The translations under genes and the position numbers were made by a program. A stretch of 34,505 bases of DNA, from the NCBI RefSeq assembly GCF_000350145.1, contig NZ_BAOL01000030.1, positions 1-34,505 of the forward strand. Direction: 5' to 3'. Of this stretch, positions 16,260 to 34,372 are shown in pieces. The notes below the pieces were generated by a model. It ran no database searches, was not told the origin of the DNA, and saw only the letters and a list, made by a program, of their open reading frames with translations. The DNA is from Ilumatobacter nonamiensis YM16-303. Lineage in GTDB: Bacteria; Actinomycetota; Acidimicrobiia; Acidimicrobiales; Ilumatobacteraceae. Every line of letters starts with the position of its first letter. Within the stretch, counting starts at the first letter, position 1.

Positions 16260-16350
16260 CCGCGACTCGGCCACCCGACATCGCCGCCGCTCACTCGTCA
16301 AGAACAGCTCGACAGCTTCCGACGGCAGTGTCCATCACCGAGGGGCAACC

Positions 16351-18113: not shown

Positions 18114-18530
18114 GTGCCCTCGATCACCGGTCGCCTTGAAATCACGCTCTCAGTTCGCGACCCGGCGAGCAGCGCTGCTTGGTATTCGGAGCTTCTGGGT
18201 ATGCAAGAGACCTACGACCACACCTCGGACGACGGCCGCATGCGCTACATCTGCCTCCGCGAGCCGAGCAGTGAGCTCGTGCTGTGCCTCGTTGGTCACG
18301 CGGACAATCCCGGTGACGAGTTCAACGAGACCGGGACGGGACTCGACCATCTCGAGTTCGTCGTCGCACAACGTGAGGATCTCGCCGAGTGGGCTGCTCG
18401 GCTCGACGCATTGGGAGTCGAGCACTCGGGTGTCAAAGAGTTCGACTACACGGCCAACTCGATGGTCACATTCCGCGACCCGGACAGCATCCAACTCGAG
18501 TTCTTCTGGCGGGCGCCGGCCGACGGTTGA
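18114..18530 (+). CDS. VOC-family (glyoxalase/bleomycin-resistance-like) protein
   Basis: This 138-residue protein has a vicinal-oxygen-chelate fold made of two beta-alpha-beta-beta-beta modules. It starts at the GTG giving MPSITGRLEITLSVRDPASSAAWYSELLG, a standard VOC opening. GTGLDHLEFVV and DPDSIQLEFFW supply the metal-ligand-like His and Glu of the second module. AACAAT ends 6 nt before this GTG, matching the leaderless spacing, though it is not a perfect TANNNT. Longer in-frame starts upstream give a non-protein-like extension and are rejected. The substrate is unknown. It converges on the SET gene, with a hairpin between the two. Confidence 0.82.
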   Translation: MPSITGRLEITLSVRDPASSAAWYSELLGMQETYDHTSDDGRMRYICLREPSSELVLCLVGHADNPGDEFNETGTGLDHLEFVVAQREDLAEWAARLDALGVEHSGVKEFDYTANSMVTFRDPDSIQLEFFWRAPADG

Positions 18531-18556
18531 CGGGAACACACAGACTGAGAGCAGCG

Positions 18557-18581
18557 CGTACCGCTCGTGCGAGGAGGTACG
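18557..18581. terminator. Hairpin between the convergent VOC and SET genes
   Basis: CGTACC (18557-18562) pairs with GGTACG (18576-18581), and an inner CTCG/CGAG pair lies within the loop. It sits in the 67-base gap between two converging stops, so it could terminate both transcripts. There is no U-tract on either side. Confidence 0.4.
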
Positions 18582-18597
18582 TAGAAATGTGCCGGTG

Positions 18598-19197
18598 TCA
18601 CACGACGATCCCCCCGTCGTCGTCGGGTGCGGTTGCTCGACGCTGAGATGAGATGAGGCCCCATGCCACCGGAGCCCAGTGCTCGCCGTATCGGTCCTGA
18701 AGTTCGGACAGCTGCCAGTCGTTGCCGCTGACTCGGCGTCGACAGGATGACGATGCGCAATGGCACGTCATCATGAAGTCCGGCAGGATCGAGAACGTCG
18801 CGTAGTCGACGGTGATTTCCTCGTCGGGTCGGATCTCGCGCCGCGCGATGAGCTCAAACGGACCCGCGAGCCACACGTTGGGGTCGCAGCTGTGATTGCC
18901 GAAGTGAGCGGTCGAGCCTTGGGGAAGAACGAGATGACGGTCGGTCTCGAGATGAAATGTGTCGACGTATCGACCACTGCGATCTGCGTCGGCGAAGGCT
19001 TCGGCGAGTTCGACATCGCTGACGATCCGACCACCAAACCGGATGACGAGGTCACCAGCGGAAAGCAACTCGCCGGCGAACAACCCGTGACCCGCAATCG
19101 CCGACTCACGGACCTCGAGACTCGGGTGGACCCATGGTTCGGCGTCCGGTACGTGCAGCGTCACGGAGACATTCTCACCGATGAGACGAGGTGCCAT
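18598..19197 (-). CDS. SET-domain protein-lysine methyltransferase
   Basis: This 199-residue protein has a complete bacterial SET domain: VRESAIAGHGLFAGE opens the fold (about 29-43), FGNHSCDPN (about 98-106) is the cofactor/substrate motif, and EITVDYAT (about 126-133) holds the catalytic tyrosine. A post-SET-like cysteine cluster follows (CHCASSSC, about 144-151). It should move a methyl group from S-adenosylmethionine to a lysine, but the target is unknown. Its ATG overlaps the gcvP stop by one base (TGATG), so it is translated by coupling from the riboswitch-controlled gcvP mRNA. Inference: the product may act with, or on, the glycine cleavage proteins. Confidence 0.88.
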   Translation of the reverse strand: MAPRLIGENVSVTLHVPDAEPWVHPSLEVRESAIAGHGLFAGELLSAGDLVIRFGGRIVSDVELAEAFADADRSGRYVDTFHLETDRHLVLPQGSTAHFGNHSCDPNVWLAGPFELIARREIRPDEEITVDYATFSILPDFMMTCHCASSSCRRRVSGNDWQLSELQDRYGEHWAPVAWGLISSQRRATAPDDDGGIVV

Positions 19198-22055
19198 CAG
19201 GCCATGGCAAGTGCTTCCAGGGGTTCACAGCTGCAGACGAGGTTGCGGTCGCCGCTGACGCCGTCGATCCGGGACACCGGCGGGAAGTACTTTGCGGCAC
19301 GCAACCCGTCGACCGGGAACGCACCGAAGTCCCGCGCGTACGGCCGATCCCACTCACCGAGCAGATCCTCCGCAGTGTGCGGCGCGTGACGGAGCGGGCT
19401 GTCGTCGACGCTCCACTCGCCGGATTCGACCCGGTCGATCTCGCCGCGGATCGCGATCATCGCATCGACGAAGCGATCGACCTCGCGCAGTGTCTCGGAC
19501 TCGGTCGGCTCGATCATCAGCGTCCCGGCGACCGGGAAACTCATCGTCGGAGCATGGAATCCGTAGTCCATCAGCCGCTTCGCGACGTCGTCGTTGGTGA
19601 CGCCGGTCGTCTTCGTCAGCGGGCGGAGGTCGATGATGCACTCATGAGCGACACGACCGTTCTCACCGCGGTAGAGGACGGGGAAGTGGGGATCGAGACG
19701 ATCGGCGATGTAGTTCGCGGCGATGATCGCAACGGTCGTGGCGTGGGTCAGCCCGGGGCTCCCCATCATCTCGAGGTACATCCATGGAATCGGGAGGATC
19801 CCCGCCGAGCCGAACGGCGCCGCCGACACCGCGCCGACCGCCGCACTCGGGTCGAGCGGGTGTCCCGGGAGGAACGGAACGAGGTGCTCGCCGACACCGA
19901 TCGGGCCGACACCGGGGCCACCGCCTCCGTGCGGAATGCAGAACGTCTTGTGCAGATTCAGGTGGCTGACGTCGGCCCCGAAACGGCCCGGACGGGCGAG
20001 TCCGACCAGGGCATTGAGATTTGCTCCGTCGACGTAGACCTGACCGCCGGCATCGTGCACGATCGCGCACAACTGCGTCACGTCACTCTCGAACACGCCG
20101 TGCGTGGACGGATACGTGATCATCAGCGCGGCGAGACGGTCGCCGTACTCCTCGATCTTCGCCTCGACGTCGGCGACATCCACATTGCCACCCTCGTCGC
20201 ACTTCGTGACGACGACGTCGAGACCCGCCATCACCGCGCTCGCCGCATTCGTGCCGTGCGCACTCTCCGGAATCAGGCAGACCGTCCGCTCATCGTCACC
20301 GTTCGCTCGGTGATAGGCGCGAATCGCGAGAAGTCCGGCGAACTCACCCTGGCTCCCGGCATTCGGCTGCACGCTGACCGCCGCGTAGCCGGTGATCGTG
20401 GCGAGTCGATGCTCGAGATCCTGGATCAGGTCGCGGTAGCCCGTTGCCTGGTCATCGGGAGCGAACGGGTGGATGTCGGCGAACTCGCTCCAGGTGATCG
20501 GCAGCATCTCGCTCGTCGCGTTCAGCTTCATCGTGCACGAACCGAGCGGGATCATCGTCCGATCGAGCGCGAGGTCCTTGTCGCTCAGCCGACGCAGGTA
20601 GCGGAGCATCTCGTGTTCGGAGTGGTACCGATCGAACACCGACTGCGTGAGGAAATCGTCCGTCCGCCGGAGCTCGGTGGGCAGCCCGTCACGGGCTTCG
20701 TCGCACTCGTCGCGGTCGATCGGCCGGCCGTCGAGAGCGGCAACGATCTGCTCGACGGTGGACAGCGTGGTGGTCTCATCGAAGCTGAGACCGACCGTGC
20801 CGTCGTCGATCCGACGGATGTTGAACCCCGCCGCAAGCGCGTCGGCGACGAGGGTGTCAGCGTCTCGATCCGACGCCCGGACCGAGAGCGTGTCGAACCA
20901 GGTGTCGTTCTCGACGGTCAGACCACCGGCTGTCAGACCCGCCGCTGCGATCGATGTCAGGCGCTGGACTCGCTCGGCGATGCGGGTGAGCCCGGAGCGT
21001 CCGTGCCACGCCGCGTAGAGGCCGGCGATGTTCGCCAGCAACACCTGTGCCGTGCAGATGTTGGAGGTCGCCTTCTCCCGACGAATGTGCTGTTCGCGGG
21101 TCTGCAGTGCGAGGCGGAGCGCGGGGCGACCCGCCGTGTCGACGCTCACGCCGACGATCCGACCAGGCATCGCGCGCGCCGCCTTGTCCCGTGCCGCGAC
21201 GAACGCGGCGTGAGGCCCACCGAAACCCATCGGCACGCCGAAGCGTTGGGCCGAACCCACGGCGATGTCGGCGTTCATCGCACCGGGCGACTTCACCAGA
21301 ACGCACGCCAGGGGATCGGTCACGACGATCGCAATCGCTCCCATGCCGTGGACCCGTTCGATCTCGTCCGTCCAATCGACCACGTTGCCGCTCGATCCCG
21401 GGTGGCCGAACAACGCGCCGAACACGCCCGAGTCGTCGGACAGGGCGCCGATGTCGCCGATGACGAGTTCGATGCCGACCGGCTCGGCGCGCGTCTCCAG
21501 CACGGCGAGCGTCTGCGGGTGAACGTCCTCGTGCACGAAGAACGCTCCTCCCTTCACCTTCGACTGGCGGCGGGCCATGGTCATGGCCTCGGCTGCTGCG
21601 GTCGCCTCGTCGAGCAGCGATGCATTCGCGACGTCGAGACCGGTGAGTTCGGTCACCAGCGTCTGGAAATTGAGGATCGCCTCGAGTCGCCCCTGGCTGA
21701 TCTCCGGTTGATACGGCGTGTAGGCGGTGTACCAGGCCGGGTTCTCCAGCACGTTGCGGGCGATCACCGGGGGAGTGATCGTGGCGTGGTAGCCCATCCC
21801 GATCAGGCTGGTCACGACGGTGTTGCGGTTCGCGATCTCCCGCAGCCGGGCGATTGCCTCGTGCTCGGGCACGCCGTCCGGGAGGTCGAGGGGTTCGGTC
21901 GCACGGATCGAGACCGGGAGTGTCGCATCGAGCAGCTCGGCGGAGGTCGACGAGCCGATCGTCTCCAACATGTGCGCCAGATCGGCCTCGGACGGTCCGA
22001 TGTGACGTCGGACGAATTCGTCGGGTTCGAACAGCTCGGCAATGGGTGTGGACAC
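19197..22055 (-). CDS. gcvP: Glycine dehydrogenase (decarboxylating), P protein
   Basis: This 952-residue full-length P protein decarboxylates glycine using PLP and passes the aminomethyl group to lipoyl-GcvH. The N-terminal half starts [15 protein letters not shown] and includes the [14 protein letters not shown] segment. The C-terminal half holds the PLP lysine, Lys703, in [19 protein letters not shown]. The GTG at 22055 is the start, with GGAGG 5 nt upstream, a good ribosome site and the end of the riboswitch expression platform. Length and motifs show no damage. The SET gene is coupled to its stop; gcvH and gcvT lie elsewhere. Confidence 0.97.
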
Positions 22056-22084
22056 GCAGGCCTCCGGGAGGGGTCGGCCCCCGC

Positions 22085-22250
22085 TGTCGTTCGTGCCTGA
22101 GAGTTTGATCCCCGTCGGCGGATCGACGGCGAAGCCGATCTCTTTCCAGCGTGCCTGCTCCGACCGGTCCGGGTGCCTGAGAGATTCCGGGGTGGTTGCT
22201 CCTTCGGCGCCGCCCGCATCGTCTCACGACGATGTTGCGGCTCTCCCGAT
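22085..22250 (-). promoter_or_regulatory. Tandem glycine riboswitch upstream of gcvP
   Basis: Read on the minus strand, aptamer 1 (about 22250-22165) has GGGAGAGCC, then GGCGCCGAAGGAGCAA and TCTCTCAGGCACC. Aptamer 2 (about 22155-22085) has CTGGAAAGAGATCGG, then CGCCGACGGGGATCAA and ACTCTCAGGCACG. These are the conserved cores of the two glycine aptamers. The expression platform, 22080-22056, contains CCTCC next to the GGAGG ribosome site (22061-22065), so control of translation by hiding the ribosome site is plausible. A TAACGT -10-like sequence lies just upstream. It should turn gcvP and the SET gene on when glycine is high (the established role of the family). Confidence 0.95.
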
Positions 22251-22316
22251 CGAAGACGACGGCGTTTCGGTTGTGCTCGGAACGTTACAGGACGTGTCTG
22301 GCCCGTGATGCAACGC

Positions 22317-23495
22317 TCAGCGGGACGCGCGCTCTTCCTCGTACTTGCCGATCTCGGTGAGCTGAGCACCGAGCGTGGCGTCGACCCAGCGGCTGCCGGC
22401 GTCGATGATCTTGTCGTAGCTCGTCTGGACCGGCGCCGCCTGGCCGGTGAAGTGCGGCATCACCTCGTACGCGAACAGCTCCCAATGGTCCTTCGTGGCG
22501 TGCCAGTTGGCGAAGTCCGCACCCATCATCATGAAGCAACCGAAGCCACCGGTCTTCTCCTGGAGTCGCTCGATCTGAGCGATCGCCATGTCGGGGGTGC
22601 CGATCACCATGCGCCCGGTCTCGTTCAGGAAGTCGACGAACTCGTCGTAGTCGGACGGTGGCGGGGGATCGTTCGGGTCGCCCGTCGGCAGGATGTGACT
22701 CAGGTAGTCGAACACCCATTGCAGGCCGTACCTGCAGTTCTCACGGGCTTGCGCCTCGGTTTCAGCGATGTGCATCGGGCCCATCAGTCGCCAATCGGTC
22801 CGATCGGCGGTGTGCCCGTTCAGCGTCGCTTCCTCCTGCCAGACGTTGAAGTTGTAGTCGAGCACACCGAAACCCGCCGGCTCCGTGGCGGCGATCGACA
22901 TCAACCCCGTGCCGTACCGACCGGCGAGCTTCGAGCCCGACGGCGACACCGATGACACGAGCGCCACGTCGAAGTTGCTGTACGGCCGCATCTGCAGCAC
23001 GGCTTCCTCGCACGTGAACCAGTCGGTCTTCTCGGTGACGGTCTCACCCGCGAACAGCCGCATCATCACGTCGAACGCCTGATGCATCCGTGGCCGCTGA
23101 TCGTTCGGGTCGATGCCGAGCATCGCGGCATCGGAGGTGAGCTGCCCCGGACCGGCACCGAACATCATCCGGCCCCGGGTCAGATGATCGAGCTGGACGA
23201 TGCGGTCGGCGAGCACCATGGGATGGTGATACGGCAGCGAATTCACACCGGTCCCGAGCTTGATGTGGGTCGTGCGCTGCGACGCCGCAGCGATGAAGAC
23301 CTCGGGGCTGGCGATCAGTTCCGAGCCTGCCGAGTGGTGCTCGCCGATCCAGGCCTCTGCATAGCCGAGTCGATCGAGGTGATCGATCAGTTCCAGGTCG
23401 CGGTGCATCGCAAGCGTGGGGTTCACCCCGGTCTTGTGCATGGGCGGCAGGAAGATCCCGAATCGCAGCGGATGATCGATCGTGAAGCTCGGCAT
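22317..23495 (-). CDS. LLM-class flavin-dependent oxidoreductase (luciferase-like)
   Basis: This 392-residue protein has the bacterial-luciferase TIM-barrel fold, found in FMN- or F420-dependent monooxygenases and oxidoreductases. It opens FTIDHPLRFGIFLPPM and contains AEAWIGEHHSAG, GTGVNSLPYHHPMVLADRI and GRMMFGAGPGQL, the family pattern of flavin-contact loops. The C-terminal part has VIGTPDMAIAQIERLQE. The ATG at 23495 is the start; the 85 codons upstream in frame look non-coding. It is upstream of gcvP on the same strand with a riboswitch-sized gap, so gcvP keeps its own promoter. Substrate and cofactor (FMN or F420) are not determinable here. Confidence 0.88.
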   Translation of the reverse strand: MPSFTIDHPLRFGIFLPPMHKTGVNPTLAMHRDLELIDHLDRLGYAEAWIGEHHSAGSELIASPEVFIAAASQRTTHIKLGTGVNSLPYHHPMVLADRIVQLDHLTRGRMMFGAGPGQLTSDAAMLGIDPNDQRPRMHQAFDVMMRLFAGETVTEKTDWFTCEEAVLQMRPYSNFDVALVSSVSPSGSKLAGRYGTGLMSIAATEPAGFGVLDYNFNVWQEEATLNGHTADRTDWRLMGPMHIAETEAQARENCRYGLQWVFDYLSHILPTGDPNDPPPPSDYDEFVDFLNETGRMVIGTPDMAIAQIERLQEKTGGFGCFMMMGADFANWHATKDHWELFAYEVMPHFTGQAAPVQTSYDKIIDAGSRWVDATLGAQLTEIGKYEEERASR

Positions 23496-23673
23496 CGCAC
23501 GATCATTCCATGAACGTCGGAACGACCACGATGCCGAGCGTCTCGGCGCCGAAGGTCGTCCGGTACGTGCATTTCCGCATGACGAAATGAAGGTTCGTGA
23601 GGCGGATCGCCGCCGTCGCTGGCAGGGGAGGGCCGCCGGAATCTCCCGATCCCCGCCGCGTCCGGTGAACGCA

Positions 23674-23697
23674 GAAGGCGAGCCGAAGCTCGCCTTC
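23674..23697 (-). terminator. Hairpin terminator after the M23 peptidase gene
   Basis: GAAGGCGAGC (23674-23683) and GCTCGCCTTC (23688-23697) form a perfect 10-bp stem. On the minus strand the loop is the very stable UUCG closed by C-G. It begins 58 bases downstream of the M23 stop. A U-rich tail is lacking, as is usual in GC-rich actinobacteria. Confidence 0.7.
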
Positions 23698-23754
23698 CAC
23701 GTTCTCATCGATGTGTGCGTCGACCAACCGACGCCGGCCTTCGGGCCCAAGTGG

Positions 23755-25620
23755 TCAGCGCTTGCTGCAGGCGTCGATCGCCTTCACGTGCGGGTACGGG
23801 TTGATGGCATCCTCACCGTTCGGATGGATCTCGAAGTGGAGATGCGGCGTGGCACTCGAGCCGGTGTTGCCGACCCAACCGATCACGTCGCCCGCCTTCA
23901 CCTTCGCTCCGACCTTGATGCCGGGGGCGAAATCCATCATGTGCAGGTACGTGTAGTAGGTGCCACTTGCATGCTGGACGCGGACGCCGTTGCCGGAGAG
24001 CGCACCGGGCTGATCCCAGTACTTCTTCGAGATCGTGCCGTCGACGACCGCATACAGTTCGTTGCCCTCGTTGGCGATGATGTCGACTCCGACGTGGAGA
24101 CGACCCCCGCCGCGGGCTGCATGCCACGTGTCACCGAAGAAGCACAGACCCTGGACCGGGAAGTGCTTCATCGAGAAGGACCCGGCGTTCGGGTTCGTCG
24201 CAGACTGTCCGCCACCGTTGCCGAGAGCCAGGATCGCGACACCCTTGGCGGTGGTCACGCCGGTCTGAGGAATCCCGTTCACACTCTGGAAGGCCTTGAG
24301 CGCCGACTGAGTCGCCGAGCCGAACACCCCGTCGGCGCCACCGCGGACGACGAGGCCGGTTTCCTGGAGTGCTCGCTGGAGTTCCTTCACCTTGGTGCCC
24401 TGTGAGCCGACCTTCAGGCCGACGTAGCCCGCGGCCGCTGCCGATGAACCTCCGGAGGAACCGCCGCTGGCGAAAGCTTGCGGGGCGTTCGACGACCCGA
24501 GACCCAGCTTGTTGATCGTCCCTTGATTCACGGTGCCGCTGGCGGTGACCCCGACGGCCTTCTGGTACTGGGCGAGCGCCGACTTGGTCACGCTGCCGAA
24601 CACTCCGTCGGCACCACCGCGCACGGTGACTCCAGCCTTGATCAGTGCCGACTGGAGCTCCTTGACTTCCGCCCCACGCGAGCCGACCTTCAGCCCGAGG
24701 TAGGCGCTCGTATCAGCGGCACTCGGTGCAGGAGCCGAACCCGAGGTGAGGCCGAGGATCTGCGCTTCGCGCTGCCCGATCACACCGTTCTGGGCGAGTC
24801 CGTTGACGGACTGGAACTTCTTCACCGCCGACGTGGTCGCCGGGCCGAAGACACCGTCCGCGCCGCCGAGGATCCAGGTGCCGACACTCTGGAGTGCCTG
24901 CTGAACCGCTTTGACATCAGCACCACGGGCGCCCTGCTTCATTCCGACGTACGAGCCGCTGCCCGACGATGTGGCTGCTCCTGCCGCGGGACTCGGTGCA
25001 GAGCCGGAACTTGCGGAGGCGCCCGACAGGCCGAGGGCCTTGGACGTCGCCCCGTCGACCGTGCCGGTCTGGGGGAGTCCGAACCACAGCTGAACGTGGC
25101 GGACGGCGCGAGCGGTCGCCGAGCCGTAGATCCCGTCTGCACCACCCGCGACGTAGGCGCCGCGGGCCATCAACTTCTCCTGGAGTTCCTTGACGGCCGA
25201 TCCTTGGGCGCCCTGCGTCAGGCCGGCAGCACTGGACGCTGACGACCCGGAGGAGCCGGAGGAGCCAGACGTTCCGATCAGCGCCTGGGATGTCGCCTCG
25301 TCGACCTCTCCGGTGACGGGCATCGATCGTCCCTGCTGGAAAATGCGGACCGCATCCCGGGTCACCGCACCGAAGACGCCGTCGGCACCTCCGGTCAGCG
25401 GGATGCCGGCGTCGATGAGTGCTCGCTGGAGAGCGACCACGTCGTTGCCCTGAGCTCCGACCCGCAGGCCGATGAAGCCCGCCGACACGACGGGAGCCTG
25501 TGCCACCGGCGCCGCATGAGCCGCAGGTGTTGCGACCGTCCAGCCCACGAACGCGACGACGAACGCCACGAAGAGCTGGAGCATGCGGATCCGGACGGAT
25601 GTCTGAGTTGCACCGTTCAT
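23755..25620 (-). CDS. Secreted M23 (LytM) peptidase with five peptidoglycan-binding repeats
   Basis: This 621-residue exported cell-wall protein has a signal peptide (about 1-38): MRIRMLQLFVAFVVAFVGW-like basic and hydrophobic regions ending AHAAP. Five PF01471-type peptidoglycan-binding repeats follow at about 48-116, 133-198, 225-292, 306-374 and 399-466, each with a GGADGVFG core. They are joined by Ser/Gly/Ala linkers. The M23 domain (about 480-621) has the zinc ligands His509 and Asp513 (HVGVD) and His595 in HLHFE, with His560 and His593 as further active-site histidines. It should cut peptidoglycan cross-bridges. The ATG at 25620 is preferred over 25629 because GAGGA lies 8 nt before it. 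Confidence 0.92.
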   Translation of the reverse strand: MNGATQTSVRIRMLQLFVAFVVAFVGWTVATPAAHAAPVAQAPVVSAGFIGLRVGAQGNDVVALQRALIDAGIPLTGGADGVFGAVTRDAVRIFQQGRSMPVTGEVDEATSQALIGTSGSSGSSGSSASSAAGLTQGAQGSAVKELQEKLMARGAYVAGGADGIYGSATARAVRHVQLWFGLPQTGTVDGATSKALGLSGASASSGSAPSPAAGAATSSGSGSYVGMKQGARGADVKAVQQALQSVGTWILGGADGVFGPATTSAVKKFQSVNGLAQNGVIGQREAQILGLTSGSAPAPSAADTSAYLGLKVGSRGAEVKELQSALIKAGVTVRGGADGVFGSVTKSALAQYQKAVGVTASGTVNQGTINKLGLGSSNAPQAFASGGSSGGSSAAAAGYVGLKVGSQGTKVKELQRALQETGLVVRGGADGVFGSATQSALKAFQSVNGIPQTGVTTAKGVAILALGNGGGQSATNPNAGSFSMKHFPVQGLCFFGDTWHAARGGGRLHVGVDIIANEGNELYAVVDGTISKKYWDQPGALSGNGVRVQHASGTYYTYLHMMDFAPGIKVGAKVKAGDVIGWVGNTGSSATPHLHFEIHPNGEDAINPYPHVKAIDACSKR

Positions 25621-25641
25621 GTCGGTCATCCTCAACGTTCC

Positions 25642-25680
25642 CAACCCTCAACACAAATCTTTAGTCGAGGTTGAGGGTTG
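25642..25680. promoter_or_regulatory. Operator-like inverted repeat upstream of the M23 gene
   Basis: CAACCCTCAA (25642-25651) and TTGAGGGTTG (25671-25680) are perfect 10-bp inverted arms 19 bases apart. A partial third copy (CCCTCAA, 25689-25695) and a TTGAG (25702-25706) follow. A TAAAGA -10-like sequence lies between the arms on the minus strand. It sits 22-60 bp before the M23 start codon, where a repressor or activator could act. The binding protein is unknown. Confidence 0.55.
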
Positions 25681-26121
25681 CATCCCGACCCTCAATTCAC
25701 AGTTGAGACTGAGACTTTGTCACTCCACCCCAGCTCACGGTCGGTTTTCGAGAACAGCGTGACACCGGGGTGAATTTCCCTCGGTGTGTCCGTTCAGTTA
25801 CGTATGGTTGACATAACGGAGATTATCGGCGGTATCGGTCGGTGAAGATCGTGCTCCCGATGCGCTCGCTGTCGCCTCGATGTCATCGCCGACCACGACG
25901 CCGTCGAGCGGTCTGCCGCCGGCGCTCGACGACGCGCTCGGCTGATGGCGCTCCCGAGTTCTCGGTGCTCACGCTGGCATGATGCGGTATGGGTGCTCCG
26001 GACGTCCGGTCGACCCCCGTTCAGGGCTTGCGCCAGCGGTGCAGCGGACCGGGACGGGAGTCCGCCCGAGACATCGCGACGTGTCGCGCACTCTCCGATC
26101 GGGCCTCCCCGCAGTGTTTCG
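25681..26121. other. Gene-free region of about 440 bp containing the candidate dif site
   Basis: No reading frame here looks like protein. It holds the outer copies of the M23 operator repeat and an imperfect hairpin at about 25762-25786 (ACACCG with CGGTGT, GGG with CCC, one bulged T). The candidate dif site follows at 25806-25833, and from about 25850 there is GC-rich sequence with no clear signal. A 10-bp palindrome CGTCATGACG (26120-26129) spans the stop of the next gene. Confidence 0.6.
25806..25833 (-). other. dif: Candidate dif site (XerC/XerD chromosome-dimer resolution)
   Basis: On the minus strand the left 11-base arm (25833-25823) reads ACCGCCGATAA, the 6-base centre (25822-25817) reads TCTCCG, and the right arm (25816-25806) reads TTATGTCAACC. 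That is the 11-6-11 layout of dif. From memory, the actinobacterial dif consensus shares GCCGATAAT and TTATGTCAA exactly, and the E. coli XerD arm is TTATGTTAAAT. The site lies in intergenic DNA with no integrase nearby, as expected for the chromosomal site. Site-specific recombination itself is inference from the sequence match. Confidence 0.75.
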
Positions 26122-26508
26122 TCATGACGTTTTGTCGGGGGGAGGGCTGGCAGCGGAGAGTTCGCGGTCGCGGAGCGGACGGGCGCTCTGGAGCAGCCAA
26201 TCGAGCGCGGCCTGCAACTCGCGGTTGCTGAGCGGCGCCCTCTCGGCCAGGTCGCGATCGGTGTCCTCGACCGCGCAGGCGAGCATGTACAGATCGTCGT
26301 GGAGTCGGTCGAGTTCGACTCGGCTGATCACGATCTCATCGGTGCCGAGCGCGAGATCCGCCGCTCGCTGACGAGAGACCCAGTCCCACTGCCGACAGCG
26401 TTGACTGCAGAACTCTCGCGGTCGGCCCGGCCCCGAGCGCCGTTCCAGGACCCGTCGACACCAGCGGCACCGCTCCCCCTTCGGTGTACGCGCTTGTGAT
26501 TGCGTCAT
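26122..26508 (-). CDS. Small actinobacterial zinc-binding protein, unknown function
   Basis: This 128-residue protein starts with MTQSQARTPKG. Two cysteine pairs, CRWC (about 14-17) and FCSQRC (about 33-38), with the pattern GPGRPREFCSQRCRQWDW between and after them, suggest a compact treble-clef-like zinc site. The remaining part is helical and rich in Arg and Leu (about 55-120). Similar CxxC/GRPRxxCSxxCR proteins occur in many actinobacteria, but I know of no assigned function. The ATG at 26508 is used because the upstream extension runs into a palindrome in the divergent promoter region. Confidence 0.75.
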   Translation of the reverse strand: MTQSQARTPKGERCRWCRRVLERRSGPGRPREFCSQRCRQWDWVSRQRAADLALGTDEIVISRVELDRLHDDLYMLACAVEDTDRDLAERAPLSNRELQAALDWLLQSARPLRDRELSAASPPPDKTS

Positions 26509-26540
26509 GACGAAACCGTACCATGCGGCTCGGTTCGCCC

Positions 26541-26554
26541 GATGGGATCCCATC
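26541..26554. promoter_or_regulatory. 14-bp perfect palindrome in a divergent promoter region
   Basis: GATGGGATCCCATC lies between the minus-strand zinc-binding gene and threonine aldolase, in the 74-base gap between starts. Its place suits a regulator acting on both genes. It is short enough to arise by chance. Confidence 0.4.
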
Positions 26555-26582
26555 TCTCCCGAACGGATGACAGACTCGGACG

Positions 26583-27677
26583 GTGACCACGATGCCTCCT
26601 GCCCCCAATCGAGCCTTTGCCAGCGACAACGCCGCCGGAGCCCATCCGTCGGTGATCGAGGCCGTGCTCGAGGCGAACACAGGACACGCTCTGGCCTACG
26701 GGGCCGACGACCAGACCGCCGAGTGCGAGCAGCGATTCAACGACACGTTCGGCGCTCCGGTGGTCACTCGCGTGTGTTTCAACGGGACTGGGGCAAACAT
26801 TGCCGGTCTGGCGACGGCGATGGGTGCGCTGCGCGGCCCGCATCACGCGATCGTCTGCACCAACTGGTCACACATCGCGGCCGACGAGACCGGCGCTCCC
26901 GAGCGCGTCCTCGGGACGAAGTTGATCGAGCTTCCCTCCCCCGACGCGAAGATCACGCCGACGATGCTCGACTCGGTCGCTCACCTCCAAGGCGTGCAAC
27001 ACCATGTCCAGCCTGGTGTCGTGTCGATCACTCAACCCACCGAGCTCGGGACCCTCTACTCCCCCGACGAGGTGTCCGCCCTGTGTGCTCGTGCGCACGA
27101 CATGGGCATGCTCGTCCACCTCGACGGCGCCCGCATCGCGAACGCCACGGCAGCGCTCGGAGGCGATCTTGCCGCGCTGCGCAGCTTCACCATCGATGCC
27201 GGCGTCGACGTGATGAGTTTCGGGGGAACGAAGAATGGCGCACTGGGAGCTGAAGCGGTGATCTTTCTCCGGCCAGAGCTCGCGGAGGGGTCGGAGTTCG
27301 TCCGCAAGCAGGTCACGCAGCTCCCGTCGAAGATGCGCTACCTGTCGGCGCAACTCAACGCGCTCCTCCGTGACGACCTCTGGATCGACCTGGGCGCGCA
27401 CTCCAACGCCATGGCGGCGCGTCTCGATGAACTGGTCCGAGACATCGTGGGCGTCGAACTGGACGGTCGTCCACAGGTCAACAGCCTGTTCCCCCGCCTC
27501 CGTCGCGAGGCGATCGGGCCGTTGCGGGACTGGTGCTTCTTCTGGGACTGGGACGCGACGGTGAACCAAGTGCGTTGGATGACCGCCTGGGACACGACCG
27601 AACAGGATGTCGAGCGCTTCGCGGCGGGTCTGCGGAGCCTCCTGACCGAGCTGGATTCGGACTGTCGGGCGAGCTGA
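26583..27677 (+). CDS. Low-specificity L-threonine aldolase / beta-eliminating lyase family
   Basis: This 364-residue PLP enzyme of the threonine aldolase fold cleaves L-threonine or allo-threonine to glycine and acetaldehyde, which would feed glycine to the glycine cleavage system. The N-terminus has FASDNAAGAHPSVIEAV. The PLP-contact Asp181 is in VHLDGARIANA, and the Schiff-base Lys217 is in SFGGTKNGALGAEAV, both intact. Start is GTG 26583 or ATG 26592 (three residues shorter); CAGACT, a near-miss -10, ends 6 nt before the GTG. Sequence alone cannot separate aldolase from related beta-eliminating lyases. Confidence 0.88.
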   Translation: MTTMPPAPNRAFASDNAAGAHPSVIEAVLEANTGHALAYGADDQTAECEQRFNDTFGAPVVTRVCFNGTGANIAGLATAMGALRGPHHAIVCTNWSHIAADETGAPERVLGTKLIELPSPDAKITPTMLDSVAHLQGVQHHVQPGVVSITQPTELGTLYSPDEVSALCARAHDMGMLVHLDGARIANATAALGGDLAALRSFTIDAGVDVMSFGGTKNGALGAEAVIFLRPELAEGSEFVRKQVTQLPSKMRYLSAQLNALLRDDLWIDLGAHSNAMAARLDELVRDIVGVELDGRPQVNSLFPRLRREAIGPLRDWCFFWDWDATVNQVRWMTAWDTTEQDVERFAAGLRSLLTELDSDCRAS

Positions 27678-27699
27678 CACAAATGGTTGTAGACCACAA

Positions 27700-27728
27700 T
27701 TGACTGTGCGGTTGATTTCCTCTACTGT
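27700..27728 (+). promoter_or_regulatory. whiB promoter
   Basis: TTGACT (27700-27705), a 17-base spacer and TACTGT (27723-27728) give a near-consensus promoter. The mRNA would carry a leader of about 70 nt, in contrast to the leaderless genes around it. Confidence 0.7.
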
Positions 27729-27802
27729 GCGCCTTGATACGCCAGGAACGACCGTCGAACGGGGTTTTCGACGGTCCGGACACTCGAGGGGAACGAGATT
27801 TC

Positions 27803-28114
27803 ATGACGACGATCGACCTGCCGGCTTTGGCCATTGGCACCGACGCAGACGCGGATGATTGGATGCGGGAGGGGGCCTGCAAGGGCCTGACGCACCTGTT
27901 CTTTCCGACCGCAGCGGAACGACCGCAAGCACGCGAGCGTCGCGAGGACGCCGCCGAAGCGATCTGCGCCGGGTGCACGGTGCGCGTCGAATGCATGGAT
28001 TTCGCTCGCGACCACCACGAGTACGGCTTCTGGGGCGGCGAGTCCGAGGACCAGCGCCATGCCGCCGGCTACCGGCTGATCGCTCCGATCGGGGTGCGCG
28101 CTCGCGCCAGCTGA
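27803..28114 (+). CDS. WhiB-family iron-sulfur transcriptional regulator
   Basis: This 103-residue WhiB-like protein is a 4Fe-4S regulator found only in Actinobacteria and their phages. The four cluster cysteines have the expected spacing: Cys26 (GACKG), Cys55-X2-Cys58 (ICAGC) and Cys64 (VECMDF). The turn motif GFWGG is at 75-79, followed by a short basic tail that would contact DNA near the sigma factor. ATG 27803 has GAGGGGA about 10 nt upstream; in-frame codons before it overlap the promoter. Which WhiB subclass it is cannot be told. It converges on the gamma-carbonic-anhydrase gene with 17 nt between stops. Confidence 0.95.
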   Translation: MTTIDLPALAIGTDADADDWMREGACKGLTHLFFPTAAERPQARERREDAAEAICAGCTVRVECMDFARDHHEYGFWGGESEDQRHAAGYRLIAPIGVRARAS

Positions 28115-28131
28115 GCCGCTCGTCGGCGGAG

Positions 28132-28650
28132 CTAGTCGAGACGGCGGAGATCGGTCCGATATTGGGCCGCTCTGCGCACGTATTCCTGACTCCCCAGGTC
28201 GATGTCCTCGCGACGGGCTCGGCCCTCCTTGATCGTGGCCGGCGTTCCCACCGCGATCGCGCCGCTCGGCACCTCGGTGTCGTTCAACACCACCGCGTTC
28301 GCTGCGACGATCGACCCGGTCCGCACCACGCATCGGTGCAACACCATCGACGCGTTGCCGATGAGGACATGATCCTCGATCGTGCAGCCTTCGAGATGGA
28401 TGAGGTGGCCGAGGACGCAGTCGCTCCCCACGATCGTCGGCCAGATCGGCGTGGTGTGCAGGACCGCATTGTCCTGCACGCTGGTGCGTTCGCCGATCGT
28501 GATCTCGCCGCCGTCGCCACGCAGCACCGCGCCCGGCCACACCGATGACTGCGACCCGATCGTCACCGATCCGATGATGGTTGCGTCGGGATGCACGAAT
28601 GCCTCGCCGCTGATCGTCGGTTCCTGGGTTCCCAATGCGTAGATGGCCAC
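28132..28650 (-). CDS. Gamma-carbonic-anhydrase-like hexapeptide-repeat protein
   Basis: This 172-residue left-handed beta-helix protein has repeated hexapeptides. The RGDGGEITIGERTSVQDN and VLHTT segments match YrdA/gamma-carbonic-anhydrase proteins. Two likely zinc histidines are His65 (VLHT) and His82 (GHLIH). The position of the third family histidine, five residues after His82, is Glu87; His85 sits three residues after His82. I therefore leave the metal site open. The GTG at 28650 is chosen over the longer frame because TACGGT lies 6 nt before it. Carbonic anhydrase activity is unproven; the fold is clear. Confidence 0.85.
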   Translation of the reverse strand: MAIYALGTQEPTISGEAFVHPDATIIGSVTIGSQSSVWPGAVLRGDGGEITIGERTSVQDNAVLHTTPIWPTIVGSDCVLGHLIHLEGCTIEDHVLIGNASMVLHRCVVRTGSIVAANAVVLNDTEVPSGAIAVGTPATIKEGRARREDIDLGSQEYVRRAAQYRTDLRRLD

Positions 28651-28656
28651 GGCGGC

Positions 28657-28686
28657 ACCGTATCGATGCCGTACCGGAGTTCTCAA
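28657..28686 (-). promoter_or_regulatory. Promoter of the gamma-carbonic-anhydrase-like gene
   Basis: On the minus strand TTGAGA (28681-28686), 18 bases, then TACGGT (28657-28662), ending 6 nt before the GTG. It supports a leaderless start at 28650. Confidence 0.6.
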
Positions 28687-28788
28687 CCGGAGTCAGCCGT
28701 GGGGGGATTCGACTTCGACACGTCGGCGCCGTGCCCCTGACGTCGATCGCTCCGGCAGTATCGAATCGTTTCTGATTCGTTGAAGCGG

Positions 28789-28794
28789 TACGTT
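28789..28794 (+). promoter_or_regulatory. -10 box of the R/G-rich protein gene
   Basis: TACGTT lies 8 nt before the ATG at 28803. Just upstream, GAATC (28763-28767) and GATTC (28774-28778) form a small inverted repeat. Confidence 0.45.
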
Positions 28795-28802
28795 GGGGCG
28801 CT

Positions 28803-30356
28803 ATGCCCCGCAGGATTGACATCGAGCTGACGAGCGCGCTCGCCGACGGCTCTTGGACATGGCGTGCAGCCGGAGCCCGCGTGCCGAAAGGCGTGCTCGA
28901 CGGACAGATTCTTCCCGACGGTTCGGCCGTCGGCGATGAGATGAAGGCCGAGATCGAGCAGGAACTCGACGGGATCCAGGTCCTCTCGATCATCAAGGGT
29001 CGTGAGAAGCCGGCGCCCGACCTGCTCGAGCTGCTTCCGGTCGAGGAGAACTTTCAAGCCGTCATCGAGACGCGGGCGAAGCGTGACCGGAGTGATCGTG
29101 GTGATCGCGGCGGGCGTGGTCCGAAGCGCGGACGCGGTGGCGATCGTCGCCGCCGAGATGGTGAGGAAGGCAGCGGTGGCGGAGACAAGCGTGGCGATCG
29201 TCGCGGACCCCGCCGTCCCCATTTCGACCCGCCGCCCGAGGTTCCGCAGCGTCCGAAGCCCAAACGGCTCCGCCCCGGGAAGGCTCGCCGAAACGAAGTG
29301 CTCGCCGAGATTCCCGAGGAGCAACGTCCGATCGCCGAACTCGCCATCCAAGGCATGCCCGCCGTCCGTTCACGTCTCGCCGAGGACAACAAGAAGCTCG
29401 CCGAGGCCGGCAAGCCGACGATGCCCGAGGACAGTGTGTTGAAGATGGCCGAGAGCCTGATGCCGAAACTTCGCGTCGCCGATTGGCTCGACCGTGCCGA
29501 AGCTGCGCTGCGCCAGATGGAGAACCTCGACCTGCGCGATGTGCGCAGCGTGGTCGCAGCCAGCGACGACCCGATCGTCGCCCGCGACGAGTCGACTCGC
29601 GAGATCGCGACTCAGCTGAAGGAAGCACTGGTGAAGAAGCAGGAGCAGGAGCTCAAGCTCTGGCTCGAGGACGTCGATGCGGCACTCACCGTCGGCCGTT
29701 CGATCCGCGCCCTCCGCCTCTCGTCGCAGCCGCCGAAAGCTGGAGTGATGTTCCCGCCGGAACTCGCCCGCAAGCTCGGCGCCGCCGCCACTGCCGGTCT
29801 GACACCCGAGGACTCGTCCGATCGGTGGGCTGCGGTGATGGAAGCCGCTGCATTCTCGCCGGTGCGCACGCTGGTGACGCCGACCGAGCCGCCGACGACG
29901 ATCACCGACGATCTGCGCAAGACCGCGCTCCGCCTCGGCCCGCTGCTCCCCCAGATCGCCGAGCTCCTCGGCGTGGAGGTTCCCGCAGGTGCTCCGCGGC
30001 CGAAGCCGCTCCGGCCCGGCCCGCGCAACGACAAGCGCAAGAAGCCGGCGCGCCGTGACGGCGGAAGTGAGGGACGGCGAGACGGCGGTCGCGACGCGGC
30101 GAAGTCCCAGGCGGAAAAGCCCAAGGCCGACAAGCCCCAGGCCGACAAGCCCGAGGCAGCCAAGCCCGAGAACGACACGCCGTCGAGCAACGACCGCGCT
30201 GCCGAGAAGGCCGAGACGCCCGACCAGGGAACCGACGAGCCGACCGCGTCCCCGACGGACGAGGCCGGCGCAGCACCCGATCCCGAGGCCTCCACGGAAC
30301 CGTCACCGGAATCGGAGTCGGCGAAGCCGGACGGGGACGACACCACCACCACGTGA
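28803..30356 (+). CDS. Large low-complexity Arg/Gly-rich protein, unknown function
   Basis: This 517-residue protein of no family known to me has an N-terminal folded block (1-90) beginning PRRIDIELTSALADGSWTWR. It is followed by a 60-residue Arg/Gly/Asp stretch (about 92-152; DRGGRGPKRGRGGDRRRR), like RG-rich RNA-binding tails. A helical middle region (about 165-320, LAEIPEEQRPIAELAIQGMP, then KKQEQELKLWLEDVDAAL) leads to a Pro-rich part, and then a tail with repeats of AxKPxADKPxA and Asp/Glu/Ser/Thr. It is most likely an RNA- or DNA-associated protein (inference from composition). It may be a lineage-specific family. Confidence 0.75.
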   Translation: MPRRIDIELTSALADGSWTWRAAGARVPKGVLDGQILPDGSAVGDEMKAEIEQELDGIQVLSIIKGREKPAPDLLELLPVEENFQAVIETRAKRDRSDRGDRGGRGPKRGRGGDRRRRDGEEGSGGGDKRGDRRGPRRPHFDPPPEVPQRPKPKRLRPGKARRNEVLAEIPEEQRPIAELAIQGMPAVRSRLAEDNKKLAEAGKPTMPEDSVLKMAESLMPKLRVADWLDRAEAALRQMENLDLRDVRSVVAASDDPIVARDESTREIATQLKEALVKKQEQELKLWLEDVDAALTVGRSIRALRLSSQPPKAGVMFPPELARKLGAAATAGLTPEDSSDRWAAVMEAAAFSPVRTLVTPTEPPTTITDDLRKTALRLGPLLPQIAELLGVEVPAGAPRPKPLRPGPRNDKRKKPARRDGGSEGRRDGGRDAAKSQAEKPKADKPQADKPEAAKPENDTPSSNDRAAEKAETPDQGTDEPTASPTDEAGAAPDPEASTEPSPESESAKPDGDDTTTT

Positions 30357-30381
30357 TTCGCCGCGGTCCGTCGACGAGTTC

Positions 30382-30387
30382 TACGCT
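30382..30387 (+). promoter_or_regulatory. -10 box of the enoyl-CoA hydratase gene
   Basis: TACGCT lies 8 nt before the ATG at 30396, again leaderless spacing. Confidence 0.45.
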
Positions 30388-30395
30388 CGGCGGTC

Positions 30396-31181
30396 ATGGC
30401 TGACATCGTCACGTACGAAACCCGCGAGCGGACTGCGCTCATCACCCTGAACCGTCCCGAGGCCCGCAACGCGGTCAACGGCGACGTTGCCGAGGGAATG
30501 GAGGCCGCCATCGACCAGATGGAAGCCGACGACGAGGTCTGGATCGGCGTCCTCCAGGCCAACACCGAGGGTCAGTCCAAGCCGGTCTTCTGCGCCGGCG
30601 CAGATCTCAAGGCGATCAACAGCGGCGATGCCGCGCGACTCAGCACGGCCCGCGGCAATTTCGCCGGGTTCGTGTATCGGGAACGCAAGAAGCCGGTGAT
30701 CGTCGCGGTCGATGGTCTCGCAACGGCAGGGGGATGTGAGATCGTGCTCGCCGCCGATCTCGTGGTGGCGTCCAGGAACTCGGCGTTCGGTCTCGCCGAA
30801 GTCAAGCGGAACCTGATCGCCGGTGCCGGCGGATTGTTCCGCCTGCCGCGGGCGATCGGGAAGTCCGCGGCGATGGAAGCCATCCTGACCGGCGAGCCGA
30901 TTCCTGCCGAACGCGCCTACGAGCTCGGACTGGTGTCACGTCTCGTGGAACCGGGTGAGGCAACGACCGAAGCGCTGCGACTCGCCGAGCAGATCACCGC
31001 CAACGCTCCCCTCGCCGTGTGGGAGAGCCGCAAGGTGGTTCTCGCGAGCGAGGATCAGGACGACGACACGTTGAAGCAGATGACCGATGCCGCGATGGGC
31101 AAGGTGATGTCGTCGGAGGATCTCAAGGAGGGCCTCACCGCGTTCATCGAGAAGCGCACTCCCCAGTGGACGGGCCGCTGA
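30396..31181 (+). CDS. Enoyl-CoA hydratase/isomerase (crotonase) family protein
   Basis: This 261-residue crotonase-fold enzyme acts on enoyl-CoA in beta-oxidation or a related acyl-CoA pathway. The oxyanion-hole segments are FCAGADLKAIN and VDGLATAGGCEIVLAADL. Both glutamates that act as catalytic acid/base in hydratases have counterparts, Glu115 (GGCEIV) and Glu135 (GLAEVK). The C-terminal half (GAGGLFRLPRAIGKSAAME, then ERAYELGLVSRLV) is typical. Hydratase is the best guess; isomerase or hydrolase activity cannot be excluded. Its partner enzymes are not adjacent, although an acyl-CoA dehydrogenase is at the left end of the window. Confidence 0.88.
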   Translation: MADIVTYETRERTALITLNRPEARNAVNGDVAEGMEAAIDQMEADDEVWIGVLQANTEGQSKPVFCAGADLKAINSGDAARLSTARGNFAGFVYRERKKPVIVAVDGLATAGGCEIVLAADLVVASRNSAFGLAEVKRNLIAGAGGLFRLPRAIGKSAAMEAILTGEPIPAERAYELGLVSRLVEPGEATTEALRLAEQITANAPLAVWESRKVVLASEDQDDDTLKQMTDAAMGKVMSSEDLKEGLTAFIEKRTPQWTGR

Positions 31182-31184
31182 TTC

Positions 31185-31643
31185 TCAGAGTTCGCGGTAG
31201 GTCGTGATCAGGCGGGCCACGATGCCCGCACGCTCGTAGAGGTTCTTCGTGTGGCGGTCGCCCGGCAACGACTCGCCCTGGACCGCCATCGCGCCTGCAG
31301 CCTTGCCGCGCTCCATGACGAACTCGAGCATCGTGTCACCGAAGCCGTTCTCACGTGCCTGCGGGGTGACCCACACCTGATCGACGCGCAGGATCTGGTC
31401 GTCGCCGAGCACGGCGACCAAGTATCCGACGACGGTCTCGTCGATGTGCGCAACGGCGACATCGACCCCCGGTGCCCGGCACCGCTCGACCCAGCCGGAA
31501 CCAACGGGCGGATGCTCGATCAGCCAGCGGTCGCCGCCGCGCTGGCCGACCAACGCAGCTCGGGCCTCGGTTTCGAGAAGTTCGAGTTGGGCGATGTCGT
31601 CGGCGTCATCGGGGGCGGCCGGGCGAACCAGAGGATCGATCAC
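31185..31643 (-). CDS. GNAT-family N-acetyltransferase
   Basis: This 152-residue GNAT protein has VRPAAPDDADDIAQLE at its start and VVGYLVAVLGDDQILRVDQVWVTPQARENGFGDTMLEFVM in its core. The acetyl-CoA loop is degenerate (QARENGFG instead of Q/RxxGxG/A), so activity is likely but not sure. TKNLYERAGIVARLITTY closes the fold. It starts with GTG, which overlaps the stop of the preceding gene (GTGA), so it is translationally coupled as the third gene of the acidic-protein operon. The substrate is unknown. Confidence 0.8.
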   Translation of the reverse strand: MIDPLVRPAAPDDADDIAQLELLETEARAALVGQRGGDRWLIEHPPVGSGWVERCRAPGVDVAVAHIDETVVGYLVAVLGDDQILRVDQVWVTPQARENGFGDTMLEFVMERGKAAGAMAVQGESLPGDRHTKNLYERAGIVARLITTYREL

Positions 31644-32146
31644 TGGTCGGCCAGCTGCGCGAGCTTGCCGAGAACCGTCCGGCGCCGACGGTGAGCGGTT
31701 TCGTACCGCCCGATCTCGTCCCGCTTCGCGGAGTCGAGCGCTTCCAGCTTTGCGACGATGTCGATCGCGGGCAGCGTGTCGTAGTCAGGGAGGGCCAGGT
31801 CGGCGACGTCCGGCAGCGGGTCGCCCGAGGTCGCCGTCGATTCCTGGCTATTCGCACCGGAATCGCTGGTGGAGGCCGGAACCGAGTCCCTCGATGGATC
31901 CTCGGCCACGGTGGTCTCGGTGGGGCTCGTCGCTGCGGCCTCGAGCCGGCTGCGCACCTGAGCGACACCCTGGTCGACGGTGAACCGACCGATGAACCGG
32001 GCGTTGTTCAACTCCTGGCGAGCCTGCTTGACCGCCCGTGGACCGTCCTCGATCAGCATCGCCCCGAGCCCGATCGGCGCGTAGACCAGTAGGTCGATCG
32101 CTACCCGGAGGACCGAGCTCGCGTCGTGTGCTCGGCCCCGACGCAT
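31640..32146 (-). CDS. Small helical membrane-associated protein, unknown function
   Basis: This 168-residue protein starts MRRGRAHDASSVLR at ATG 32146 (GTG 32149 is possible). A hydrophobic helix (about 14-32, AIDLLVYAPIGLGAMLIEDG) could insert in or lie on a membrane or lipid surface. The middle is Ser/Thr-rich and disordered. The C-terminus (about 120-168) is a helical bundle, YDTLPAIDIVAKLEAL, then YETAHRRRRTVLGKLAQL. That C-terminal pattern is shared with small actinobacterial proteins, some described as lipid-droplet-associated. Function unknown. It is the second gene of a three-gene operon, 17 nt after the acidic protein gene and overlapping the GNAT gene. Confidence 0.7.
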   Translation of the reverse strand: MRRGRAHDASSVLRVAIDLLVYAPIGLGAMLIEDGPRAVKQARQELNNARFIGRFTVDQGVAQVRSRLEAAATSPTETTVAEDPSRDSVPASTSDSGANSQESTATSGDPLPDVADLALPDYDTLPAIDIVAKLEALDSAKRDEIGRYETAHRRRRTVLGKLAQLADQ

Positions 32147-32163
32147 CACTGGATCGTTCGAAC

Positions 32164-32649
32164 TCAGGAGAAGATCGGGCAATCGTCGTCGCCAACGGGA
32201 CAGTTGGGGGCCGACGTCTTCACGAGCAGGAAGCACGAGTTGCAGAGCTGTTCGTTCTGCTGCTTCGGCTGCAAGCGTTCGCCGCCTTCGCCACGGGTGT
32301 CCCCTGGTGACACATCGGCTTCGTCGTCATCATCGTCGTCATCGTCGTCGTTGGCGACCAGGCGATCCTTGAGGATCTTGTCGAGATCCTCCTCGACGTC
32401 GTCGTCGTCGACCATGTCGTCATCGTCGTCGTCATCGTCGTCCTTGCGCTTCTTGCGCTTGGTTCGCGGCGCGTCGTCCTCGTCACCTTCTTCGTCGTCG
32501 TCATCGTCGTCGCCGTCATCGTCGTCGTCGGTCGACGAATCGTCGTCGTCCTCGTCGAGTTCATCGGCATCGGGATCGTCGAGGTCGTCGCCCTCGTCGT
32601 CACCGTCTTCTTCCTCGATGTCGTCGTCCAAAGTTTCGTCGTCAGCCAT
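32164..32649 (-). CDS. Asp-rich DUF4193-like protein with C-terminal cysteine motif
   Basis: This 161-residue protein has about 110 N-terminal residues that are overwhelmingly Asp and Glu, with runs of up to nine Asp and only short Lys/Arg islands (RTKRKKRK). DNA here is an extended GAC/GAT trinucleotide tract. The short conserved segments VEEDLDKILKDRL and, at the end, QNEQLCNSCFLLVKTSAPNCP resemble actinobacterial DUF4193 proteins, where a CxxCFL motif is typical. The C-terminal cysteines (two in CNSC, then two more) could bind zinc. It heads a three-gene operon. Function unknown in the family. The start at ATG 32649 has TAGCGA about 15-20 nt upstream. Confidence 0.75.
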   Translation of the reverse strand: MADDETLDDDIEEEDGDDEGDDLDDPDADELDEDDDDSSTDDDDDGDDDDDDEEGDEDDAPRTKRKKRKDDDDDDDDDMVDDDDVEEDLDKILKDRLVANDDDDDDDDDEADVSPGDTRGEGGERLQPKQQNEQLCNSCFLLVKTSAPNCPVGDDDCPIFS

Positions 32650-32761
32650 GTTGCTCGCGATCGCTATTCGTGTCGTCCCAGGAACGTGCGGATGCAGGTC
32701 CGGTTCGGCGGAGCATACGCAAAGGCATGGCGACCGTCGGATGGCAGTGCTGTGACACCCG

Positions 32762-34372
32762 TCACAGCTCGGGAGATGTGCCTCTCCGTTGCTCGGCGCG
32801 GCGCTCGGATTCGAGCCGTTCGAGTTCGGGAGCCTCCGTCGTCATGAAACTCATCGCAGCCGCCAGTGCATGATGGCCGGCCTGCTCGGCGATCAACCGG
32901 TGCATGTCGAGCGCCACTCGGCGATACGACGGGTGACCCTGTGGCGACGATCGCAGTTCGAGCATGTGGAACGCCTCACGCACGTTGAACTGCATGTTGT
33001 ACCGCATGCGGTACGCCATCGACACGGCGTACGCCGCTTGCTCCGGGTAGCTCTCGAGCAGATCGTCGTGCAGCGCCGCCGAGCGACTCATCGTCTCGTC
33101 GAACAACCCGCCGACACCGGCTTCCTCCACCAACTCCGGACGGGTGTAGCCGTGATTCGGGGTGAGCCGCTGCCACTCGATCGTGAGCATGCGGTGGCGC
33201 TGCATGTCGCGAAACGCGCCGTAGTCGCTGAGCACGTCGAAGCGGTAGAAGCTGCGCTCGAACGCGCGGCCCGGCTTGTGGCGTCGATTCTGCCGGTCGC
33301 CGATGTAGGCCTTGAGGAGCGACATCCGCTCGTCGACACCGAACGACCGCACCTTCTCGAGGATCTGGGTCTCGGGGAGCGACGAGTGCGAGTAACAGAT
33401 GGCGGCCAGGATGTTGTCCTCGGCATCGGGGTCGAAGTCGACGAGCGTCACTTCGGCGGCCGGCTCGACCGGTGCTCCCCCGAGCAGGTCGGCGACGGCT
33501 TCACCGGAACGGTCCCGGGTGTCGGCGAGGTACTCGCTCCAGCGGCCGCCGCGCTCCGCGATGTCGACACGACGGAGGAAGCTGGGGATCACCTTCCGCA
33601 GTTCGTGGAGCATCAGGTCGGCGTACGACCGTGCCTCGGGCAGCGGGTGCGACCTCATGCGGAGGAGCAGCGCCTCGAACGCCTGGCCCGTGCCGTAGAT
33701 GCCCACGTTCGAGGTGGCCGCTGCCGGGAGCATCCCCCGTACGGCATCGAGCGCTTTGGCCCGCGTCGCCGTGCGATACACGAACTCGCTGTCGTCGGGC
33801 CCGCGTTCGACCGTGTCCCGAACGTGGTCGGTCACGAACTCGGCGCACTGACTGTAGGCATCGAAGATGCGATCGAGGTCGCCGACGTACCGCGTGCCGA
33901 GTGGCGAGGCCAGCACGGCGGGATCGCGGTAGTACCGGTACCGTCCCCCGAGGCGACTGTCGTACGCGATGTAGCGCGTGCTCTGTTCGAGGTAGCTCAT
34001 CAGCCGCCCCCACTCGAGCACCTTCGTCAGCAGGTTCGACGCCTGCTCACACGCGAGATGGACGCCGCCGAGTTGCGCGACCGAGTCGTCGCCGTAGTCG
34101 AAGAACACCCGCTCGTACAGCTCCTCGGCGCGGTCGAGACCGACCGTGGCGTCGATCGACTGGTCGCCACGGATGTCGAGATCACCGACGAACTCGTCGA
34201 GGAACAGCCGTCGGAGCGACTTCGGACTGCGGCTGTATCGAGCGAAGAGTGCACCTTTGACCACCTCGGGCAGGTTGACCAGGGCGAACACGGGCCCGTC
34301 CAGGTTCGTGAAGTACCGACGCAGGACGTCGGACTCGTCCGACGTGAAGGATTCAGGCACGTACACAGCCAC
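32762..34372 (-). CDS. Tandem ThyX-like (flavin-dependent thymidylate synthase family) protein with split motif
   Basis: This 536-residue protein has two ThyX-like domains in tandem, about 45-265 and 365-515. The canonical motif of this family is RHR-X7-S (within RHRxxSxNEQSxRY). In the first domain the aligned segment is WGRLMSYLEQSTRY (121-134): EQSTRY and Ser131 are kept, but the Arg-His pair is lost. In the second it is RHRMLTIEWQR (392-402): RHR is kept, but the serine position is Arg402. Conserved C-terminal segments of ThyX (ALDAVRGMLPAAAT and YNMQFNVREAFHMLELR) appear in both. Thymidylate synthesis is uncertain; a composite active site is possible (inference). The start GTG has TAGAGT 8 nt upstream. 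Confidence 0.8.
   Translation of the reverse strand: MAVYVPESFTSDESDVLRRYFTNLDGPVFALVNLPEVVKGALFARYSRSPKSLRRLFLDEFVGDLDIRGDQSIDATVGLDRAEELYERVFFDYGDDSVAQLGGVHLACEQASNLLTKVLEWGRLMSYLEQSTRYIAYDSRLGGRYRYYRDPAVLASPLGTRYVGDLDRIFDAYSQCAEFVTDHVRDTVERGPDDSEFVYRTATRAKALDAVRGMLPAAATSNVGIYGTGQAFEALLLRMRSHPLPEARSYADLMLHELRKVIPSFLRRVDIAERGGRWSEYLADTRDRSGEAVADLLGGAPVEPAAEVTLVDFDPDAEDNILAAICYSHSSLPETQILEKVRSFGVDERMSLLKAYIGDRQNRRHKPGRAFERSFYRFDVLSDYGAFRDMQRHRMLTIEWQRLTPNHGYTRPELVEEAGVGGLFDETMSRSAALHDDLLESYPEQAAYAVSMAYRMRYNMQFNVREAFHMLELRSSPQGHPSYRRVALDMHRLIAEQAGHHALAAAMSFMTTEAPELERLESERRAEQRRGTSPEL

Follow-up and report, generated by a model that had tools for sequence, protein, structure and literature searches.

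A predicted chromosomal dif site where polar words converge on a contig of an Ilumatobacter-like draft genome

A 28-bp sequence in a gene-free gap of the window, i.e., the whole stretch of 34,505 nucleotides analyzed here, raises two linked questions: whether it could be dif, the site at which chromosome dimers are resolved, and whether this contig spans the replication terminus. An earlier note had proposed both. Read directly in the minus-strand direction, from 25833 down to 25806, the 28-mer (25806-25833) is ACCGCCGATAATCTCCGTTATGTCAACC, and it is composed of two 11-bp arms and a 6-bp centre (ACCGCCGATAA-TCTCCG-TTATGTCAACC), as expected for an XerCD-type chromosomal dif. The assignment of the two arms to XerC and XerD follows the E. 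coli arm order, which we presume to hold here (Table 1). The 28-mer lies between two minus-strand open reading frames (ORFs), at 23755-25644 and 26122-26553, and direct reading together with these ORF positions confirmed the 11-6-11 layout, minus-strand arms, and gene-free setting initially described. The first ORF encodes an M23 peptidase with five peptidoglycan-binding domains, with the 28-mer ~160 bp upstream, while the second is a short ORF whose 3' end is ~290 bp from the 28-mer and which matched no known family.

Two other features were observed in this part of the window. Positions 25639-25695, where the M23/peptidoglycan-binding gene starts, include an 11-nt perfect inverted repeat (CAACCCTCAAC/GTTGAGGGTTG, at 25642-25652 and 25670-25680) and a 13-nt direct repeat. 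These repeats are partly conserved in the genus, had no match in Rfam, and possibly represent a regulatory site or leader. Separately, two tandem glycine riboswitch aptamers (22080-22258, minus strand, 60.9 and 34.3 bits, Rfam RF00504) directly precede gcvP, the glycine dehydrogenase gene (19197-22055, minus strand), a usual arrangement.

Table 1 Features of the candidate dif region, with coordinates in the window.
Feature	Position	Strand	Basis
Predicted dif site, ACCGCCGATAA TCTCCG TTATGTCAACC	25806..25833	-	Unique in genome; core kept and flanks diverged in 7 genus members; adjoining switch in oligomer polarity
Putative XerC-type arm, ACCGCCGATAA	25823..25833	-	Analogy with E. coli arm order; CC[CG]ATAA core kept across relatives
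Central 6-bp region, TCTCCG	25817..25822	-	First T and final CG constant in genus; middle three bases vary
Putative XerD-type arm, TTATGTCAACC	25806..25816	-	TTATGTCAA invariant in genus; TTATGTAAA and TTATGTCAC variants elsewhere in family
GGGGGAG words, KOPS/AIMS-like, pointing towards dif	410..26144; starts 410, 4554, 11340, 14357, 21769, 25071, 26138	+	Strand scan
GGGGGAG words pointing towards dif	26473..33481; starts 26473, 26936, 27059, 29946, 33475	-	Strand scan

We evaluated the copy number of the 28-mer in both the window and the draft genome. Allowing ≤3 mismatches, the pattern CCGATAATNNNNNTTATGTCAA had a single match in the window, compared to none in 100 shuffles. In the 4,282,232-base draft assembly, it again matched once, while a backwards control pattern did not match at all; since this assembly comprises 399 contigs, uniqueness in the source genome refers to assembled DNA. 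A search for additional copies, which the earlier note had put forward as a check, thus returned a single site: the looser pattern ATAATNNNNNTTATGTNAA (≤2 mismatches) matched the 28-mer with 0 mismatches, and its sole other match was a poor one with 2 mismatches, ACAATCCGGCTTATGCCAA, on another contig (C396:28151-28169). The same contig C396 also encodes a tyrosine recombinase at 4797-5261, 23 kb off. A complete chromosome from the same genus (4,830,181 bp) likewise carried only one site, at 2,871,868-2,871,887 on the minus strand, so that both genomes display the single copy per chromosome expected of dif. A short sequence may by its length alone resemble the dif consensus by chance; for the 28-mer this is extremely improbable, however, as the pattern was absent from all shuffles, unique across 4.28 Mb, and both orthologous and conserved in relatives.

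The window was collinear with positions 2,839,532-2,881,977 of the complete relative, apart from local differences in some genes, and the orthologous site occupied the same gene slot, between the same two genes. This complete relative was one of ten genomes sampled for the genus, seven of which included exactly one copy of an exact CSATAATNNNCGTTATGTMA match. In a 340-base alignment of seven genus members, CGCC[CG]ATAAT...CGTTATGTCAA was invariant while the flanks differed, i.e., the core was maintained in related genomes without its surroundings. Across the family, a match with ≤3 mismatches was obtained for 135 of 150 genomes, and for 73 of the 76 good-quality ones, the latter count being an upper estimate of true sites; weak matches in some AT-rich small genomes of the family were at chance level based on a reversed control. 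Other genera of the family (L016-L031) displayed dif variants with CCCATAAT and either TTATGTAAA or TTATGTCAC arms, uniform within genera. A wider contig scan used a pattern with a fixed CG in the centre, which biases the taxonomic spread obtained, and its few non-actinobacterial matches may be due to chance.

This conservation pattern also bears on whether the 28-mer could instead serve the neighboring M23 peptidase gene, as a promoter or as a site for protein binding, and resemble dif by accident. The 28-mer is indeed ~160 bp upstream of this gene, a slot that its ortholog in the complete relative also occupies, and the XerD arm of the 28-mer reads TTGACA on the plus strand. However, this TTGACA points away from the M23 gene, no sigma-70-like promoter was detected in a scan of 25400-26400, the upstream DNA flanking the 28-mer has diverged in the genus, and many actinobacteria have a 28-mer of the same layout where polarity switches. 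No hits were obtained at the 28-mer itself in scans for promoters, terminators, and Rfam families, and we consider an accidental resemblance of this type highly improbable.

The candidate machinery for a dif site is encoded in the same genome. Six tyrosine recombinases were identified, including an XerD (TIGR02225, 334.2 bits for a cut-off of 329.6) in a pyrG-NUDIX-xerD context, and an XerC-like protein for which TIGR02224 was the best model, at 288 bits and below the curated cut-off of 335. The latter is flanked by dprA on one side and by an M23 gene then rpsB on the other, i.e., the typical dprA-xerC-rpsB context, with neighbors of both genes named by reading their sequences. The genome also encodes an FtsK that combines alpha, motor, and gamma domains, the last of which aligns with the P. 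aeruginosa FtsK-gamma structures 2VE8/2VE9. All six tyrosine recombinases are located on contigs other than the one carrying the 28-mer, in line with the lack of a nearby integrase originally noted. Importantly, integrative elements exploiting Xer recombination (IMEX-type) bear dif-like 28-mers, and the site could in principle be an attachment site or a decoy derived from such an element. This is very unlikely here: beyond the absence of a recombinase gene on its contig, the 28-mer is single-copy in the genome, the flanking genes are collinear with the complete relative without any insert at the site, and polar words converge on it.

These polar words were identified from the complete relative, using only stretches >300 kb from dif for training. 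GGGGGAG was the most strand-biased 7-mer (143:5), far ahead of the rest, with a bias z of 11.3 compared to a 95% label-shuffle maximum of ~4.8. In dense stretches outside of the training set, plus-strand GGGGGAG words extended to 2,870,723 and minus-strand ones began at 2,872,761, with few exceptions, a flip which brackets dif to 2 kb; approaching dif, the density of the word climbed from 0.98 to 2.65 per 10 kb. An unbiased count across 146 dif-like loci (119 public and 27 from the family) again retrieved GGGGGAG as the top 7-mer (477:24). This word thus displays a strand bias per arm, a flip at dif, and an enrichment towards dif, as expected for KOPS or architecture imparting sequences (AIMS), and GGGGGAG along with close variants are most likely the words steering FtsK in this genome. 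We further consider it reasonably probable that GGGGGAG would be an FtsK-orienting word across Actinomycetota, maintained since the Acidimicrobiia split from the other classes and recognized by a conserved gamma domain of FtsK, in which case word polarity alone would suffice to locate dif and replichore junctions on individual contigs of draft genomes.

In the window, GGGGGAG switched strand between 26,138 and 26,473, with 11 of the 12 words on the expected side of the 28-mer and the exception (26138) only 0.3 kb beyond it. A polarity model, i.e., a weight table of fifteen 7-mers derived from 136 loci outside the genus, placed the best switch in the same interval (26,138-26,473), and its 2-log-unit interval (25,071-26,473) included the 28-mer. 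The gain of this model over a constant polarity was 49.8 log units for the window, similar to windows of the complete relative spanning dif (up to 50.8) and to be compared with ≤9.2 for windows well away from it. When GGGGGAG was evaluated contig by contig in the draft genome, 35 of 47 adjacent pairs agreed in polarity among the first 99 sites listed, which is supportive but limited. Overall, the 28-mer sits where polar oligomers converge, as would a dif at the replichore junction, and since GGGGGAG switches strand inside the window, adjoining the 28-mer, the suggestion that the window spans the junction and terminus is supported.

GC skew is too weak to settle the terminus question; the polar words decided it. 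Skew was weak and flat in the window. Across 75 sampled 20-kb stretches of the complete relative, the changepoint fell at 2.72 Mb and the dif is at 2.87 Mb, which puts the two within ~150 kb of each other, or 3% of the genome length. The interval was broad, with a bootstrap 10-90% range of 2.72-2.85 Mb and the 97.5% point at 2.92 Mb. Skew nevertheless differed between the two sides of this dif (t-test p ~0.0005). The skew of the complete relative is thus consistent with the dif position, but its noise precludes placing the terminus to better than 100 kb, and the inversion within a few kb that the earlier note had proposed to look for could not be resolved at this scale. The same note had also placed the site opposite oriC, which is roughly but not exactly the case: in the complete relative, dnaA is near ~1.4 kb and dif at 59% of the map, leaving unequal dnaA-to-dif arms of 2.87 and 1.96 Mb. 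In this chromosome, polar words switch exactly at dif, and not at the midpoint.

Taken together, the sequence evidence indicates that the 28-mer at 25806-25833 is almost certainly the chromosomal dif of an Ilumatobacter-like actinobacterium (Ilumatobacteraceae, Acidimicrobiia), because it is unique, kept without its flanks, in an orthologous position, accompanied by XerC, XerD, and FtsK-gamma, and at the convergence of polar oligomers. Its proposed role as the dimer-resolution site is supported by the same observations. Protein binding at the 28-mer, reading of GGGGGAG by FtsK, and recombination are predicted based on the known Xer/dif/FtsK pathway. Under this model, homologous recombination would leave sister chromosomes linked as a dimer, and septal FtsK would translocate the DNA of each arm, with polar words that point to dif from both sides setting its direction. 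On arriving at dif, FtsK would activate XerD, and XerC and XerD would then recombine the two dif copies to yield chromosome monomers. From a practical standpoint, a single 34-kb contig is sufficient to fix the replication terminus in this draft genome, from a class that has received little study, and the switching of polar words locates dif to ~1 kb where GC skew fails.

The E. coli dif, GGTGCGCATAATGTATATTATGTTAAAT, is recombined by XerC and XerD under the control of FtsK, with GGGNAGGG as the KOPS. The Ilumatobacter site resembles it in the inner parts of the arms (ATAA...TTATGT) and in arm order, and differs from it in the outer arm bases and central region. Closer counterparts are found in actinobacteria, for which dif/XerCD sites are reportedly also associated with the names of Hendrickson and Lawrence. 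Sites of this type are known throughout Actinobacteria and were predicted in 66 of 66 single-chromosome members by Kono et al. 2011 (PMC3025954). They share with the Ilumatobacter site the 28-bp 11-6-11 layout, the GCCGATAAT and TTATGTCAA cores, and a single copy per chromosome at the replichore junction; the latter site, however, is from Acidimicrobiia, and its genus displays a central region ending in CG. A literature search (subscription journals being outside its coverage) found no published Ilumatobacter dif. Dif in Actinobacteria and GGGGGAG-core words flipping at dif in Corynebacterium (PMC2830990) were already known. Specifically, in C. aurimucosum, G(A/T/C)GGGGGA and (T/C)GGGGGAG, with 856 leading- and 61 lagging-strand copies, locate dif (PMC2830990). 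The same GGGGGAG core, polarity flip, and enrichment towards dif are observed in Ilumatobacter, but here the word was recovered without prior word choice and in another class, with a putative role in FtsK guidance. This extends a signal known from Corynebacterium to Acidimicrobiia, and provides a candidate FtsK guide motif for this class.
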